Shown here: in pieces, positions 19,072 to 61,189 of the stretch
How the letters are laid out: every line of letters begins with the position of its first letter
Position numbering within the stretch: position 1 is the stretch's first letter
Origin: Demequina zhanjiangensis
GTDB lineage: Bacteria > Actinomycetota > Actinomycetes > Actinomycetales > Demequinaceae
Direction of reading: 5' to 3'
Length of the DNA: 64,000 nt
Assembly (NCBI RefSeq): GCF_030418315.1
Contig: NZ_JAUHPV010000004.1
Coordinates: 186,001 to 250,000 of the forward strand
Made by a program: the position numbers and the translations under genes
The notes under the pieces: model-generated
Databases searched by the model: none
Told to the model about the DNA's origin: nothing
What the model saw: only the letters and a program-made list of their open reading frames with translations

Positions 19072-19180
19072 GCGACGCCTCAGCGCGCGGCCGACTCGTG
19101 GGCCCCGACCAGGCATTCTGTGCGGCGCGTCGGGTGCGGCGACCTCCCCAGCGGGGACGTGCGGTGGCAGTATGGACGAT

Positions 19181-21319
19181 GTGAGCGATTCCGGCGCCCC
19201 AGACCACGAGAGCCCTTCGCCGGCACTCCAGGACCTCGCGCGCGCCTGTGGCGTGGCACTCGAGTACACGGCGGCGTCGGGTGAGCACAAGACGTCGTCG
19301 GCGGCGGCGATCCGCAAGGTGCTTGCGGCCATGGGGGTGGACGGCTCCGACGACCATCGGTGCGCGGACGCGCTCAACCGGCTTGAGGATCTGCGCTGGG
19401 AGCGGCTGGTGCCGGCGATCACGGTGGTGCGTCAGGGCCAGGAGGCCGTGGTGCCGGTGCACGTCCCGCACGGCGAGCCGGCGTCGTCCTTCCTCACGCT
19501 CGAGTCGGGCGAGGTGCGAGAGCTCGAGCAGTTGGACATCTACCTTCCTCCGCGCTCGGTCGGCGAGCGGGAGATCGGTCGGGCGTCGTTCCGCGTGCCC
19601 GGCGACCTGCCGCTCGGCTGGCACCGTCTCGAGGGCAGGACCACGGGCATGAAGGGCAAGGGCTGGGTGGTCGTGACCCCTCAGCGCGTGGAGATCCCGC
19701 AGGAGGTGCGGGAGGCGCGGCCCTACGGCCTGCATACGCAGCTCTACTCGGTGCGGTCGTCGCGCTCGTGGGGACTGGGCGACTTCGCGGACCTGGGCGA
19801 CCTGTGCGCCCTCGCGAAGGTGCGCGCTGGCGCGGACTTCGTGCTCGTGAACCCTCTGCACGCTGCCGAGCCCGTGCCGCCGATCTCGAACTCCCCGTAC
19901 AGCCCGTCGTCCCGGCGCTATCTGAACCCCATGTACATCCGTGTGGAGGACATCCCGGAGGTCGCGTACCTGCCGAGTCAGCAGCGCGCGGTGCTCGAGT
20001 GGGAGTCGGAGCGGCCGCGTCGCGTCAACGGCACCGATGCGCTGCTCGACAGGGACAGCGCGTGGCGCGCGAAGAAGGCCGCCCTGGAGCACGTGTTCAA
20101 GGCGTCCCGCTCGGTGGGCCGCGATGCGCAGTTCGAGGCCTACTGCCTGCGTGAGGGGCGTGCGCTGGAGGACTTCGCCACGTGGTGCGCGCTCGCGGAG
20201 GCGCACAGGGGCGTGCCGTGGCCGGACGAGATGGCCAAGCCGCACTCGGCCGAGGTCTCGCAGTGGCGCGAGCAGCACCCGGATCGGGTGATGTTCTACG
20301 CGTGGCTCCAGTGGATCGCACAGGAGCAGCTCGCGAACGCCCAGGTCCGTGCGCGCGAGGCGGGCATGATGATCGGCGTCATGACGGATCTCGCCGTCGG
20401 CGTGCACCCTGAGGGCGCCGACTCGTGGGCGCTGCAGTCGGTGCTCGCGCGGGGCGTCGCGATCGGTGCCCCTCCGGACGCGTTCAACCAGATGGGCCAG
20501 AACTGGGCGTTGCCTCCGTGGAATCCGCGGGCGCTCGAGGCGTCTGCGTACATGCCGTTCCGCGACCTCGTGCGTGCGGCCGTGTCGAGCGCGGGTGCGC
20601 TGAGGATCGATCACGTGCTGGGCCTGTTCCGGCAGTGGTGGGTCCCGGATGGTCACCGTGCTGATGACGGCGCGTACGTGAACGTGGATCATGAGGCGCT
20701 GATCGGGATCGTCGCGCTCGAGGCGCAGCGTGCAGGTGCGATCGTCATCGGCGAGGACCTCGGCACTGTCGAGCCGTGGGTGATGGCGTATCTGAACGAG
20801 CGGGGCCTCCTGGGCACCGTGGTCCAGCGCTTCGAGTGGCGCGACGGTCACCCTCTGGCGCCGGAGGACTACAGGTCCGACGTGCTGGTCGCGGTGACGA
20901 CCCATGACCACCCGCCCACCGCGTCGTACCTGGCGGGCACCGATCTGGACGTGCCGGAATCGCTGGGACTGATCGTCGGCGACGTCGAGGAGCAGCGCGA
21001 GCGGGGCCGTCGGGAGGTCGCCGACCTGACCCGCTATCTGGACGAGCGAGGGTGGCTGCCGATCGAGCACAGCGACGAGGACATCCTGGCGGGCATGCAC
21101 ACGCTCGTGCTGAACACGCCGGCGCTGCTCAGTGCGATCGCGGTGACGGACCTGGTGGGGGACATGCGTACGCAGAACCAGCCGGGCACGTTCACGGAGT
21201 ACCCGAACTGGCAGATCCCGCTCACCGACTCGAACGGTGTGCCGGTGCTGCTGGACGACCTGTTCGAGCACCCGCGGGTGAGGCGGCTCGTGACGAAGCT
21301 GAAGACCGCGCGGGGCTGA
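19181..21319 (+). CDS. malQ: 4-alpha-glucanotransferase (amylomaltase)
   Basis: A 712-residue GH77 enzyme that transfers maltooligosaccharide units and releases glucose, in maltose/glycogen metabolism. The catalytic region shows NSPYSPSSRRYLNPMY, GVMTDLAVGVHP, the nucleophile Asp in ALRIDHVLGLFRQWWVP, the acid/base Glu in IGEDLGTVEPWV and the stabilising Asp in THDHPP. The N-terminal 150 residues form the extra domains typical of actinobacterial MalQ. GTG 19181 is preferred because CAGTAT lies 7 nt upstream; the ATG at 19172 would overlap that box and add three residues. Confidence 0.92.
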   Translation: MSDSGAPDHESPSPALQDLARACGVALEYTAASGEHKTSSAAAIRKVLAAMGVDGSDDHRCADALNRLEDLRWERLVPAITVVRQGQEAVVPVHVPHGEPASSFLTLESGEVRELEQLDIYLPPRSVGEREIGRASFRVPGDLPLGWHRLEGRTTGMKGKGWVVVTPQRVEIPQEVREARPYGLHTQLYSVRSSRSWGLGDFADLGDLCALAKVRAGADFVLVNPLHAAEPVPPISNSPYSPSSRRYLNPMYIRVEDIPEVAYLPSQQRAVLEWESERPRRVNGTDALLDRDSAWRAKKAALEHVFKASRSVGRDAQFEAYCLREGRALEDFATWCALAEAHRGVPWPDEMAKPHSAEVSQWREQHPDRVMFYAWLQWIAQEQLANAQVRAREAGMMIGVMTDLAVGVHPEGADSWALQSVLARGVAIGAPPDAFNQMGQNWALPPWNPRALEASAYMPFRDLVRAAVSSAGALRIDHVLGLFRQWWVPDGHRADDGAYVNVDHEALIGIVALEAQRAGAIVIGEDLGTVEPWVMAYLNERGLLGTVVQRFEWRDGHPLAPEDYRSDVLVAVTTHDHPPTASYLAGTDLDVPESLGLIVGDVEEQRERGRREVADLTRYLDERGWLPIEHSDEDILAGMHTLVLNTPALLSAIAVTDLVGDMRTQNQPGTFTEYPNWQIPLTDSNGVPVLLDDLFEHPRVRRLVTKLKTARG

Positions 21320-21365
21320 ACCGTCGGGCAGGGCCTCGCGAGCCTGCACGCACGGCCGCACGCGG

Positions 21366-21381
21366 TGTGACGCAGGTCACA
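21366..21381 (+). promoter_or_regulatory. Perfect CRP/GlxR-type operator
   Basis: TGTGACGCAGGTCACA is a perfect TGTGA-N6-TCACA palindrome. Its centre (21373.5) lies 41.5-42.5 bases upstream of the start predicted from the TAGATT -10 box at 21404-21409, the class II activator position. It sits between the 3' ends of two convergent genes, so no neighbouring coding gene starts here. Confidence 0.7.
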
Positions 21382-21414
21382 GCGCACTGGCACCGCGTGC
21401 CGCTAGATTTCCCC

Positions 21415-21523
21415 TTGGGCAGCAAGCCGAGGTGCTTGGTGCGTCGGACGGAGCAACGGGGGTCGGCCGACGCACCTGGCCCTTGCGCTCAAGACCGGAC
21501 CGGGCGGCCCCGTGGGGCCGCCC
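21415..21523 (+). ncRNA. Candidate small RNA under CRP-type control
   Basis: From the promoter (operator 21366-21381, -10 TAGATT 21404-21409) a transcript of about 110 nt is predicted. It contains three hairpins: CAAGC/GCTTG (21423-21438), GGTGCGTCGG/CCGACGCACC (21438-21447 with 21467-21476) and a terminator, GGGCGGCCCC-GT-GGGGCCGCCC (21502-21523). It lies between malQ and pepN, which converge. I do not recognise an Rfam family. A 39-codon ORF from GTG 21433 also exists, so a small mRNA is an alternative. Confidence 0.5.
21502..21523 (+). terminator. GC-rich terminator hairpin between convergent malQ and pepN
   Basis: A perfect 10-bp stem, GGGCGGCCCC with its complement, encloses a GT loop. 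It can act on both strands and would also end the predicted small RNA. Confidence 0.6.
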
Positions 21524-21547
21524 TTCGCCGTCTGTGCCAGCGGGCGC

Positions 21548-24130
<2,583 letters not shown>

Positions 24131-24302: not shown

Positions 24303-24318
24303 TGTGAGATATGTCACA
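24303..24318 (+). promoter_or_regulatory. Second perfect CRP/GlxR-type operator, upstream of the secreted-protein gene
   Basis: TGTGAGATATGTCACA matches TGTGA-N6-TCACA. It lies in the divergent region between pepN (ATG 24130) and the secreted protein (ATG 24447). A GACGAT box at 24341-24346 would place the operator near -42 for the + strand gene, so activation of that gene is the more likely role. Confidence 0.65.
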
Positions 24319-24446: not shown

Positions 24447-26633
24447 ATGAATACGACGATCCCGGCGAAGGGAAGGCTCGCGCTGCTCGCGGTCACCTCC
24501 CTCGTCGTCGCCACGCTCGTGGCACTGCCCGCGCATGCCGCGCTCCCGGGGAGCCTCCCGTGGAACGCCACCGATGGGCTCCCGAACATGACCGGCACGA
24601 TGCTGGTCGTCTCCGACTCGTCAGGCAACTCGAAGGAGCTCGGCCCGATCAACGGCAACGCGTACAAGGTTGAGGCGATCCACAGGACCGCCGTGCCCGT
24701 GCTCGGCAAGACGAACCCCAACCCTGGCACCGACATGACCGAGGTGCGCATCGACACCGCCACCGTCGGTACCGACGTCTGGGGCTACTTCGCCTTCACC
24801 ATCGAGAGCTTCAGCACCGGCCAGTCCGCATGGGAGTTCATGGAGAAGGCGGCCCCGCCCGAGTGCGACTACGACTCCATGACCGAGGCGGACCTGATCG
24901 CGGCCTGCAATCCCTGGCTCTATCGCCAGGCAGGCGACTTCTTCATCGTCGCCGACTACCAGGGCAACAGCGTCACGCTCGGCTACCGAGTCTGGATGGA
25001 CAACGTGACCGGTGCCGCATCGGGAGGGGACGCCGACTACCTCGGCGACTTCACCCTGATTCCGGACACCGTCGGCGGCGGCAGGGCGAACGCCGAGACG
25101 GGCTACGTCGAGATGGCCGTGAACATCACTCAGGCGGTCTTCGGCGGCGCTCTGCGTTGCACGAGCATCGGCAACATCATCCCGAGCACGCTGACGGGCA
25201 ACTCCGACAGCGCCGACTACAAGGATGTGGTGCTCGCCGATCTCACCGAGCAGACCACGATCGCGAACTGCGGCTCCGTCACGGTCTCCAAGGTGCTGGA
25301 GCCCTCCAGCGCCACCGGCTACGACGACAGCTTCGACTGGACCCTCGCCCGCACCGGGGGAGACGCCATCCGCTACCAGGCCGATGGCGGCGCGCTCAGC
25401 GCGACCGACACGCTCTACGGCGGAGACTCCTCGCCCACTGAGACGAAGCTCATCGCTGCGGCCAACTACACGCTAGGCGAGGTCATCGACCCTGGTGACG
25501 ACGGCATCACGGCCTTCGAGCTGAAGAGCATCGTCTGCACCACCGAGGACGGCACCGATCACACGGTGACGGCCGGAGGCACCTTCCCTGTGAAGGTCGG
25601 GGAGACCACCAGCTGCGTCATCACGAACAAGGAGCGCAAGGGCACGCTGACGGTCTACAAGACGGTGACGAACGACAACGGCGGAACCAAGACCTACGCT
25701 GATTTCACCTTCTCGCTGACGGGCCCCAACGGCTTCGTGAAGCTCACCAACCAGGGGTTCAGCGAGGACACCGACACCGAGGCCGACGGAGTGTGGAGCC
25801 TGGCCGTGATGCCGGGCACCTACACGGCGACCGAGGATGACGTGGCCGGCTACACCGAGGACGACTCCGACTGCGCGTCTGTGGACGTGCCGGCAGGCGG
25901 GTCTGCGTCCTGCACGATCGCCAACGATGACGACCCGTCCACGATCGTCGTCACCAAGACGGTCGACAACGGCGCCGGTGGCGTGCTTGAGGCGGATGAC
26001 TTCTCGGTGACGCTGACCGGTCCGACGACCGGGCTGCCGTCGAGCAAGTCCTTCGTCAACGACGAGGGCAAGACCTTGGAAGGGCGCACCTCGTTCGGTG
26101 GCCTCTCGGCAGGGTCGGGATACTCGATCACGGAGGACGCCTACGGAGGCGATGTCACGTACACGGTGACGTACGGCGGCGACTGCAACGCGGACGGCAC
26201 GCTCAAGGCGGATCTGGGGCTCGGACAGACCAGGACATGCACCGTGCTCAACGTGGCGCAGAAGGCCAGCCCTGACTTCACGACGGTCCAGGACTGGGTG
26301 CTGCATGACACGGCGACGTTCACCGGCATCCGCGCGGGCGCACCGAGCGCTGGCGACGTGGAGGTCACCTTCGGCCTCTACACCGATGCGCAGTGCAGCG
26401 TCCCCGTCACGGGCGGCGAGGGCTTCTCCCACGAGGAGTCGGTCGCTCTCTCCGGCGGCATCGCCTCCACCGTCGACGGCATCGCGGTCGACGAGCCGGG
26501 CACGTACTACTGGAAGGTCCAGTACCCGGGCGACGAGTTCAACAACCCGCAGTCGTACTGCGGCGACGAGGTCACGGAGATCCTCGCGCTGGATGAGGAC
26601 CACGACACGTGGCCCGCTGCGGGAACGGAGTGA
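24447..26633 (+). CDS. Secreted multi-domain protein with DUF5979-like repeats
   Basis: A 728-residue exported protein. The signal peptide covers residues 1-31 (cleavage after LPAHA). An N-terminal domain of about 220 residues of unknown type follows. Next come three beta-sandwich modules resembling DUF5979/SpaA prealbumin-like domains, beginning with VTVSKVLEP, LTVYKTVTNDNGG and IVVTKTVDNGAGG, each ending near a conserved Cys-Thr/Val-Ile/Leu-x-Asn segment. A final domain begins at SPDFTTVQDW. There is no LPXTG motif or terminal membrane helix, so it should be released or held non-covalently. It starts at ATG 24447 behind GAGGGGA. Even Cys spacing suggests disulfides. Surface or adhesive roles are inference. 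Confidence 0.75.
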   Translation: MNTTIPAKGRLALLAVTSLVVATLVALPAHAALPGSLPWNATDGLPNMTGTMLVVSDSSGNSKELGPINGNAYKVEAIHRTAVPVLGKTNPNPGTDMTEVRIDTATVGTDVWGYFAFTIESFSTGQSAWEFMEKAAPPECDYDSMTEADLIAACNPWLYRQAGDFFIVADYQGNSVTLGYRVWMDNVTGAASGGDADYLGDFTLIPDTVGGGRANAETGYVEMAVNITQAVFGGALRCTSIGNIIPSTLTGNSDSADYKDVVLADLTEQTTIANCGSVTVSKVLEPSSATGYDDSFDWTLARTGGDAIRYQADGGALSATDTLYGGDSSPTETKLIAAANYTLGEVIDPGDDGITAFELKSIVCTTEDGTDHTVTAGGTFPVKVGETTSCVITNKERKGTLTVYKTVTNDNGGTKTYADFTFSLTGPNGFVKLTNQGFSEDTDTEADGVWSLAVMPGTYTATEDDVAGYTEDDSDCASVDVPAGGSASCTIANDDDPSTIVVTKTVDNGAGGVLEADDFSVTLTGPTTGLPSSKSFVNDEGKTLEGRTSFGGLSAGSGYSITEDAYGGDVTYTVTYGGDCNADGTLKADLGLGQTRTCTVLNVAQKASPDFTTVQDWVLHDTATFTGIRAGAPSAGDVEVTFGLYTDAQCSVPVTGGEGFSHEESVALSGGIASTVDGIAVDEPGTYYWKVQYPGDEFNNPQSYCGDEVTEILALDEDHDTWPAAGTE

Positions 26634-47342: not shown

Positions 47343-47367
47343 GGGTCAGTCCTCACGTGTATTCATG

Positions 47368-47403
47368 CAACTGTTGTACGGTAGCACGCATATCCATTAC
47401 GGT
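47368..47403 (+). promoter_or_regulatory. marR promoter with overlapping inverted repeat
   Basis: TTGTAC (47374-47379), 18 nt, TACGGT (47398-47403), then 6 nt to ATG 47410 (leaderless). CAAC-T-GTTG (47368-47376) overlaps the -35 and is a candidate MarR operator. TACGGT is also repeated at 47377-47382. The gap is shared with the divergent ClC gene. Confidence 0.55.
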
Positions 47404-59463: not shown

Positions 59464-59490
59464 ATGCACACCGCGATCATCATTCCGTAG
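59464..59490 (+). CDS. Isoleucine leader peptide (MHTAIIIP) of cimA
   Basis: An eight-codon ORF, ATG-CAC-ACC-GCG-ATC-ATC-ATT-CCG-TAG, contains three consecutive Ile codons (59476-59484). It is immediately followed by a hairpin and an intrinsic terminator, and the next gene makes an isoleucine precursor. This is the classic design of an attenuation leader peptide. It has no ribosome-binding site; the -10 box 7 nt upstream implies leaderless translation. Confidence 0.7.
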   Translation: MHTAIIIP

Positions 59491-59545
59491 CGCGTCGGCG
59501 ACCCCCTCCCGACGCGCAGCCTCCCGCACCCAGGGAGGCTTTTTT
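59490..59545 (+). terminator. Attenuator: hairpin plus intrinsic terminator upstream of cimA
   Basis: Stem 1 pairs GCGCGTCGG (59490-59498) with CCGACGCGC (59509-59517). Directly after it AGCCTCCC (59518-59525) pairs with GGGAGGCT (59533-59540), closing a 7-nt loop and running into six T (59540-59545), a textbook intrinsic terminator. CCTCCC also occurs at 59505-59510 and could pair with the same GGGAGG, giving an alternative fold. No gene upstream on this strand needs a terminator here, as the kinase gene diverges. Confidence 0.72.
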
Positions 59546-59587
59546 GTTGGGAAGGGTCGACGGCGGCACGAGCCGAGGAGCGACACG

Positions 59588-61189
59588 ATGACGGATCTCA
59601 CTGTCGAGGTCTACGACACGACCCTGCGCGATGGTGCCCAGCAGGAGGGCATGAACCTGTCCGTGGCCGACAAGATGGCCATCGCGCCTCTGCTCGACCA
59701 GCTCGGCGTCGGGGTCATCGAGGGCGGATGGCCGGGCGCCGTGCCCAAGGACACCGAGTTCTTCCAGCTTGTCGCGAAGGAGCTGAGCTTCCGCAACGCC
59801 ACGTTCGCCGCCTTCGGCATGACGCGCCGCGCAGGATCGACCGCCGCCGCCGACCCCCAGGTCAGGGCCCTGCTCGACTCTGAGGCGCCCATCATCACCC
59901 TGGTCGCCAAGTCCGACATCCGGCACGCCGAGCGTGCGCTCCGGGTCAGTCCCGACGAGAACCTGCGGATGATCGAGGAGACCGTCGCCTTCCTCGTAGG
60001 CGAGGGTCGCCGCGTCGTGCTCGATGCCGAGCACTTCTTCGACGGCTACCGCTTCGACCCCGCCTACTCGCTCCGGTGCCTCCAGGCGGGGGAGCAGGCA
60101 GGCGCCTCCACGCTCGTGCTCTGCGACACCAACGGCGGCATGCTGCCGGACGACGTGACGGGCATCGTGACCGAGGTGCGCCAGGCCACCCAGGCGCAGC
60201 TGGGAATGCACGCGCACAACGATTCCGGCTGCGCAGTCGCTAACTCCATGGCCTCGGTCGCCGCGGGCGTCACCCACGTGCAGGGCTGCGTCAACGGCTA
60301 CGGTGAGCGCACCGGCAACGCCGACCTGGTGGCGGTCGCCGCGAACCTCGAGATCAAGAAGGGCATCCATGCCCTCGCGAATGACGGCCTCGTCGAGTCG
60401 ACCCGCATCGCTCACGCGATCGCCGAGGTCACCAACATCGCGCCGTTCGCTCGGCAGCCGTACGTGGGTGCGTCCGCCTTCGCGCACAAGGCAGGGCTGC
60501 ACGCCTCGGCCATCAAGGTGGATCCGGACCTGTACCAGCACACCGATCCCGCGCTGGTCGGAAACGACATGCGCATGCTCGTGTCCGAGATGGCGGGCCG
60601 CGCGTCGATCGAGCTGAAGGGCAAGGAGCTCGGCTACGACCTGTCCGGTCAGAGCGAGCTGCTGACCAGGATCACCGAGCGGGTCAAGCACGCCGAGGCC
60701 GCCGGGTACACCTATGACGCGGCCGACGCCTCGTTCGACCTCCTGCTGCGCGCAGAGCTCGGGCAGCTCCACAGGTACTGGGCCGTCGAGGAGTGGCGGG
60801 TCCGCGTGTCCTCGAAGCCGGGAGACCCGACCGACGCGGGCGCGGAGGCGGTGCTGAAGCTCCGCGCGGGAGGGTCCGTGCGGCACCTCGTGGTCGGCGA
60901 GGGCAACGGCCCCGTGAACGCGCTCGACCACGCGCTGCGGAGCGCGCTCGCCAAGGTCTACCCGGAGATCGAGCGCTTCGAGCTCACCGACTTCAAGGTC
61001 CGCATCATGGAGGCGAGCCACGGCACGGACGCGATCACGCGCGTCCTCGTGACCACGGCCGACACCGAGACCGGGCGCTCCTGGGTCACCGTCGGCGTCG
61101 GGCCGAACGTCATCGAGGCCTCGTGGGAGGCTCTGACCGACGCCTTCTACTACGGGCTCGTCACCCACGACGTCGCACCGAACCCCTGA
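59588..61189 (+). CDS. cimA: (R)-Citramalate synthase
   Basis: A 533-residue enzyme of the isopropylmalate/citramalate synthase family that condenses pyruvate and acetyl-CoA to citramalate, the threonine-independent entry to isoleucine. The catalytic barrel shows YDTTLRDGAQQEGMNLS, the metal-site GMHAHNDSGCAVANS and NGYGERTGNADL. The C-terminal 150 residues (from about 390) form the regulatory LeuA-dimer domain that binds isoleucine in homologues. The length fits CimA (about 520-540). ATG 59588 follows GAGGAG. Preceded by an Ile-codon leader and terminator. A homocitrate or isopropylmalate synthase is less likely from the motifs. Confidence 0.9.
   Translation: MTDLTVEVYDTTLRDGAQQEGMNLSVADKMAIAPLLDQLGVGVIEGGWPGAVPKDTEFFQLVAKELSFRNATFAAFGMTRRAGSTAAADPQVRALLDSEAPIITLVAKSDIRHAERALRVSPDENLRMIEETVAFLVGEGRRVVLDAEHFFDGYRFDPAYSLRCLQAGEQAGASTLVLCDTNGGMLPDDVTGIVTEVRQATQAQLGMHAHNDSGCAVANSMASVAAGVTHVQGCVNGYGERTGNADLVAVAANLEIKKGIHALANDGLVESTRIAHAIAEVTNIAPFARQPYVGASAFAHKAGLHASAIKVDPDLYQHTDPALVGNDMRMLVSEMAGRASIELKGKELGYDLSGQSELLTRITERVKHAEAAGYTYDAADASFDLLLRAELGQLHRYWAVEEWRVRVSSKPGDPTDAGAEAVLKLRAGGSVRHLVVGEGNGPVNALDHALRSALAKVYPEIERFELTDFKVRIMEASHGTDAITRVLVTTADTETGRSWVTVGVGPNVIEASWEALTDAFYYGLVTHDVAPNP

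Follow-up and report, generated by a model that had tools for sequence, protein, structure and literature searches.

A candidate small RNA gene with a CRP-type operator between the convergent genes malQ and pepN of Demequina zhanjiangensis

The window studied here is a stretch of 64,000 nt from Demequina zhanjiangensis, bases 186001–250000 of contig 13, in a genome of 3.13 Mb. We will describe the region between two of its genes, malQ and pepN. The features of the region are given below, with positions counted along the window. G001 is the related genome with which most comparisons were made.

19172–21319, + strand: malQ (4-alpha-glucanotransferase; Pfam Glyco_hydro_77 and MalQ_N), the upstream neighbour, which stops 5' of the operator
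21366–21381, no strand assigned: CRP/GlxR-type operator TGTGACGCAGGTCACA, recognised by direct reading, by the count of such sites in the genome and by its conservation in G001
21404–21409, + strand: putative -10 element TAGATT, 22 nt 3' of the operator (class II spacing); a TAnnnT hexamer is equally spaced in G001
21415–21523, + strand: putative small RNA, predicted from promoter-like elements and fold, with a start at about 21415–21417 and an uncertain 3' end
21433–21481, + strand: conserved hairpin with a 10-bp core stem (21438–21447 paired with 21467–21476) and a G-rich loop
21502–21523, no strand assigned: GC hairpin, a possible terminator which may serve the small RNA, malQ or pepN
21548–24130, - strand: pepN-type M1 aminopeptidase (Pfam Peptidase_M1 and ERAP1_C; ORF lists), downstream and convergent
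24303–24318, no strand assigned: TGTGAGATATGTCACA, the second CRP-type site, also perfect, with pepN on one side and a divergent SpaA-fold gene on the other

The two genes are separated by a gap of 228 nt. The ORFs and the Pfam matches agree with the first-pass annotation of this DNA in that both genes end there: the stop of malQ is found at 21319 and the end of the reverse pepN gene at 21548. The start of pepN was set by comparison with the ORF of Demequina salsinemoris, a species whose malQ has 84% identity with that of the window. Five ORFs which cross the gap were compared with Pfam. Four of them have no match; the fifth, antisense to malQ, reaches 23.7 bits with DUF1619_N for a cut-off of 22 bits, which we take as spurious. 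Judged by these comparisons, the gap appears to contain no convincing protein gene. The 3' end of malQ, upstream of the operator, has no strong hairpin either in the window (fold z -1.18) or in G001 (0.66), so that transcription of malQ may possibly read through into the gap.

The operator is a palindrome with perfect half-sites (6 + 6 nt), as previously described, around a non-palindromic centre, GCAG. The perfect pattern TGTGA-N6-TCACA is found at 8 places of its own genome, compared with 2 for the reversed control. When the counts of each genome are added over 44 genomes of the genus, the values are 219 and 10. The operator is very likely to be real, because such sites are enriched over the control and the genome encodes a CRP-family protein with both of its domains. 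Identity of the 16-mer alone means little. Exact copies are found also in at least three genomes (G002, G020 and G037); they were discarded as instances of the same element, since by eye no related hairpin lies nearby, and the copy in G002 appears to be located within a coding region.

The hexamer TAGATT at 21404–21409 is the sole copy in the window, counting both strands. If the start is set 7 nt past it, the centre of the operator (21373.5) lies at about -42, the distance that had been claimed. Taken alone, this -10 element is weak. A scan for consensus promoters gave no promoter-like pair in the window or in G001, and over the 44 genomes of the genus there is no enrichment of TAnnnT at class II spacing: an operator followed by TAnnnT after 20–23 nt is found 6 times, with about 4.4 expected from the local rate. 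This expectation corresponds to 6 TAnnnT per 2400 positions × 219 sites × 2 orientations × 4 spacings, a rate taken near the 8 sites of the own genome, present locus included. The general background rate, mostly from coding DNA, gives 0.75. Two of the six matches are the present locus and its counterpart in G001. The other four were considered as relatives and rejected, as the sequence downstream of them is unrelated by eye.

Among the genomes compared, G001 is the nearest relative by malQ identity (89%). Its malQ–pepN gap has a CRP-type site, a TAnnnT at the same 22-nt spacing and the hairpin, all of them at the corresponding place; its hexamer, TACGGT, has 3 of 6 matches to TATAAT. The regions differ in their identity with G001, calculated with gap columns scored as differences: 8/29 upstream, 14/16 in the operator, 14/22 in the spacer, 15/34 from the -10 to the hairpin, 32/39 in the hairpin and 12/21 after it. 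The fourfold sites of malQ agree at 207 of 387 positions (53.5%). Two exact blocks are common to both species, 21438–21451 (14 nt) and 21458–21473 (16 nt), and they include GGGGGT on the 3' side of the loop. In 20,000 simulated intergenic pairs a shared run of at least 16 nt appeared once and a run of at least 14 nt in 22 pairs. When the 64-kb window is compared with the syntenic region of G001, the blocks of the hairpin are also listed with the collinear matches that fall outside the called genes; in this comparison gene calling was approximate, and many of the matches listed are in genes missed by the caller.

Elsewhere in the window there is an exact match of 43 nt with G001 at 47350–47392, outside called genes, perhaps a promoter or an operator. 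Long exact matches with G001 are also present in the region 59464–59547, a possible attenuator formed by a short ORF with three codons for Ile, ATGCACACCGCGATCATCATTCCGTAG, and a GC hairpin that carries a run of T. It precedes an HMGL-like/LeuA-dimer gene (59588–61186), perhaps a citramalate or isopropylmalate synthase.

The conserved hairpin at 21433–21481 has a fold z of -3.89 in the window, with 1 of 200 shuffles as good, and the 49-nt hairpin of G001 has a z of -4.45. For the whole of 21415–21530 the value is -2.48 (3/200 shuffles as good), and for the GC hairpin (21493–21530) it is -2.51. The longer RNA of G001 is weakly better than its shuffles (z -1.53; 20/200). In place of the three hairpins of the first-pass annotation, the minimum-energy fold has one long interrupted hairpin (about 21415–21492) and the GC hairpin at 21502–21523. 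The latter had been called a strong terminator, which is correct as far as the strength of the hairpin is concerned; the T tract is missing, and no such hairpin is found before pepN in G001. A scan for intrinsic terminators with a T tract was empty for 21000–21900 of the window and for the G001 stretch L075:1-900.

Two stem pairs differ between the window and G001: on the + strand both become G-U, on the - strand both become mismatches. At a third position a mismatch in one species corresponds to a C-G pair in the other. With two sequences there is very little covariation: two changes to wobble pairs and one pair gained. The z value is better on the + strand in both species: for the long element it is -3.07 on the + and -1.93 on the - strand of the window, -1.53 and -0.79 in G001. 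The comparison points to an RNA of the + strand; it comes from three changes, and the structure was taken from the + fold, which leans to that strand.

The loop has an indel of 1 nt between the two species. A reading frame is open through the hairpin in both of them and G001 has a GTG near the predicted start, as it might be if the transcript were a short coding or dual-function RNA with a leaderless or short ORF near its start. The frame, however, shifts at the indel, which disfavours a conserved peptide, and few residues are shared before it. The window ORF through the hairpin (182 aa) has no Pfam match, and in high-GC DNA the strand opposite to a coding sequence often has open frames. We consider a coding RNA very improbable.

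The nature of the 3' end has to be weighed together with pepN. A transcript started with the help of the CRP-type site could enter the 3' end of pepN and lower its mRNA, either by pairing or by collision of polymerases. An antisense action on pepN had previously been taken as not indicated, a judgement which is too strict, since the supposed terminator of the window has no T tract and the core stem of G001 lies only 12 nt away from the stop codon of pepN, in a stretch where the terminator scan is also empty. Such a convergent antisense RNA is nevertheless quite unlikely in our opinion: the stable GC hairpin of the window stops 24 nt short of the stop codon of pepN, and conservation falls on the hairpin and not on a stretch within pepN. 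The second CRP-type site flanks pepN on its 5' side, but in the genomes looked at it accompanies the SpaA-fold gene and not pepN.

This second site is a 16-mer identical in G001 and G012. It adjoins a SpaA-fold surface-type gene at 24447–26630, which is also present in these two genomes. In G004 and in D. salsinemoris stretches between two M1 aminopeptidase genes were read, and the gene was not seen in them.

We have studied the distribution of the element in related species. Of the 42 other genomes of the genus which have malQ, 29 were taken around this gene; pepN lies beside it in 28 of them, the exception being L043, which has no match to pepN. The locus of D. salsinemoris, L039, is represented twice, with L032 as its second copy. 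G001 is the only one of the 28 genomes with a CRP-type site between malQ and pepN, with the gaps of L042 and L045, where the computed value is negative, left out of the scan. The covariance search suggested in the first-pass annotation was run over 298 genomes with a model of the hairpin, R1, built from two sequences and used with stricter filters, so that some weak matches are lost. The genome of the window (G000) scores 72.7 bits and G001 67.2, both well above the next best, 33.0. In all, 26 of the 298 genomes have matches at E ≤ 0.01; those in other genomes were discarded as background hairpins, judged on score alone. G004 and G038 are almost as close to the window as G001 by the fourfold sites of malQ (192/368 and 187/360 in agreement); in both the element is not found in the gap and there is no R1 match among those listed. 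The comparison supports an element restricted to one lineage, apparently present in G000 and G001 alone among the genomes searched.

By plain DNA similarity 26 of 99 relatives have matches at E ≤ 0.01, G000 included. One of the two matches in G001 is the homologous place; a match in G024 (E 4e-5) is coding sequence by eye, and the remaining ones are short pieces taken as background, with G024 and G002 examined individually. Nothing indicates a dispersed repeat, as the element matches its own genome only once at E ≤ 0.001. Viral contigs have no exact match to the hairpin pattern. No Rfam family matches the window on either strand at gathering score, and the six sub-threshold matches in 21200–21700 at E up to 10 look like chance.

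The malQ–pepN gaps of other Demequina genomes are not devoid of structure. In 11 of 28 (L046, L047, L052–L055, L057, L059 and L061–L063) there is a different hairpin, conserved in sequence, about GGACGATGCGGC..GCCGCATCGTCC, which is probably a two-way terminator. Since terminator-like conserved hairpins occupy these gaps, the presence of a conserved hairpin in the window is by itself no proof of a regulatory RNA. It may be that no separate RNA gene exists: the hairpins would belong to the 3'-UTR or the terminator of malQ (and of pepN), and the CRP-type site would be a place of binding with no promoter function. Besides the 11 genomes, the end of malQ without a strong hairpin before the operator is in favour of this possibility. 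The CRP of Mycobacterium tuberculosis is also described as behaving like a classical transcription factor at some of its sites only, and as binding between some convergent genes, such as the pairs Rv2866/Rv2867c and Rv2451/Rv2452c (PMC4117774). We find it unlikely all the same, as part of the loop is conserved and not the arms alone, and the operator with its 22-nt spacing to TAnnnT is conserved along with the hairpin. A terminator shared by both genes fits poorly because the wobble changes suit the + strand only.

The CRP-family protein of G000 is represented by one PF00027 match, on contig 18 (L066:1174-1923, - strand); it has a cNMP-binding domain and a Crp-type HTH. The best solved chains for this homologue include 3r6s, 4byy and 4cyd, as well as 3i54/3d0s, which we take to be the CRP of M. 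tuberculosis. The first three are described as GlxR of Corynebacterium glutamicum (PMC4254451). The cAMP pocket of the Demequina protein keeps Glu, Leu, Arg and one Thr, with two changes: a Thr/Ser has become Leu and an Asn has become Thr, at places where by our mapping the CRP of M. tuberculosis and GlxR contact cAMP with Thr and Asn. The first one is apparent in the alignment, which includes only the G000 protein from the genus, as PGPRL where relatives have PGPRT; we have mapped this Leu to Ser83 of Escherichia coli, reported as a contact of cAMP (PMC11253593). The second one is RRTTNT, where relatives have RRTNNN or RRTNAS; the first Asn of these is taken to be Asn138 of GlxR, which is reported to bind cAMP (PMC4254451).

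The class III adenylate/guanylate cyclase domain (PF00211) has no match in any of the 44 genomes of the genus, with a C. glutamicum control that does match, and G000 lacks a match to CYTH (PF01928). Across the genus we have a CRP/GlxR-type regulon with no class III cyclase match, possibly a case of cAMP-free CRP. The response to cAMP and carbon source attributed to the RNA in the first-pass annotation is doubtful, because neither domain was found in these searches and two of the cAMP contacts have changed. As far as class III and CYTH domains and one homologue can tell, the CRP regulator of the genus probably does not answer to cAMP.

A reading as a small RNA made from the CRP-type site is still the best one: the same site, spacing and hairpin are present in G001, while the parts of the earlier proposal that concern cAMP and antisense action have become weaker. 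We give a probability of about 0.58 to a lineage-restricted candidate gene between malQ and pepN, started by CRP and acting in trans through its loop. A dimer of the CRP/GlxR type would bind 21366–21381 and help RNA polymerase to start near 21415, from a class II-like position. The product would be a short RNA of the + strand with a predicted 3' end, and its core would be the hairpin with the G-rich loop GGGGGU. Most likely the RNA would act in trans, its loop pairing with other transcripts in stretches rich in C. Pairing with the start regions of five genes was computed, and the duplexes were no better than shuffles; these were the starts of malQ, of pepN, of the second M1 peptidase of the window and of the SpaA-fold genes of the window and of G001. 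No report on small RNAs of Demequina was found among the best-ranked results of a literature search, which has little weight either way.

Small RNAs linked to CRP are a known kind, of which the present locus is a further candidate. MTS0997 of M. tuberculosis, also called Mcr11, is one parallel. Its level is reported to fall in a crp knockout, and a putative CRP site lies upstream (PMC3207917). Both cases are actinobacterial with a putative CRP site upstream, but that of MTS0997 is given as 107 bp before the start (PMC3207917), compared with about 42 in Demequina. MTS0997 has Rv1265 as a neighbour, and the Demequina locus has no Rfam match at gathering score. In E. coli the transcription of CyaR is described as activated by Crp (PMC9002310); the tie to CRP is similar, although in Demequina it is predicted. 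Control of CyaR is by Crp-cAMP, whereas cAMP is doubtful in Demequina, whose locus, again, has no match in Rfam.

6C RNA (RF01066) has C-rich loops, unlike the G-rich loop found here. It is an actinobacterial small RNA reported in the GlxR network (PMC4046766; PMC6582537). An identity of the Demequina element with 6C RNA is not supported: this family has no match in the window, and in the 44 genomes of the genus there is one match below the cut-off (G029) and none above it. CRP-Mt sites are also reported upstream of ncRv13843, ncRv11373 and ncRv13660c (PMC4117774). Their placement before small RNAs, and that of others between convergent genes, is similar to that of the Demequina operator; binding was demonstrated there by ChIP, whereas the Demequina site is known from its sequence.

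With regard to the regulator, DdrI of Deinococcus radiodurans is described as a member of the CRP family in which cAMP contacts are substituted and which binds CRP-type DNA without cAMP (PMC11253593). Contacts appear to be substituted in the Demequina homologue too. The latter differs in its closeness to GlxR and to the related mycobacterial proteins, in keeping more of the pocket according to our mapping (the Glu, Leu, Arg and one Thr mentioned above), and in that its binding is predicted.

As a tentative and rather doubtful extension, the CRP/GlxR regulon of Demequina might be uncoupled from cAMP, with this locus as its RNA output, a hairpin with a G-rich loop and no Rfam family. If our reading is true, a lineage-restricted member would be added to the actinobacterial small RNAs tied to a regulator of the CRP family. 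Such an RNA would sit in a CRP regulon which seems to work without cAMP, and what CRP senses in the absence of a cyclase would become a question that can be tested.
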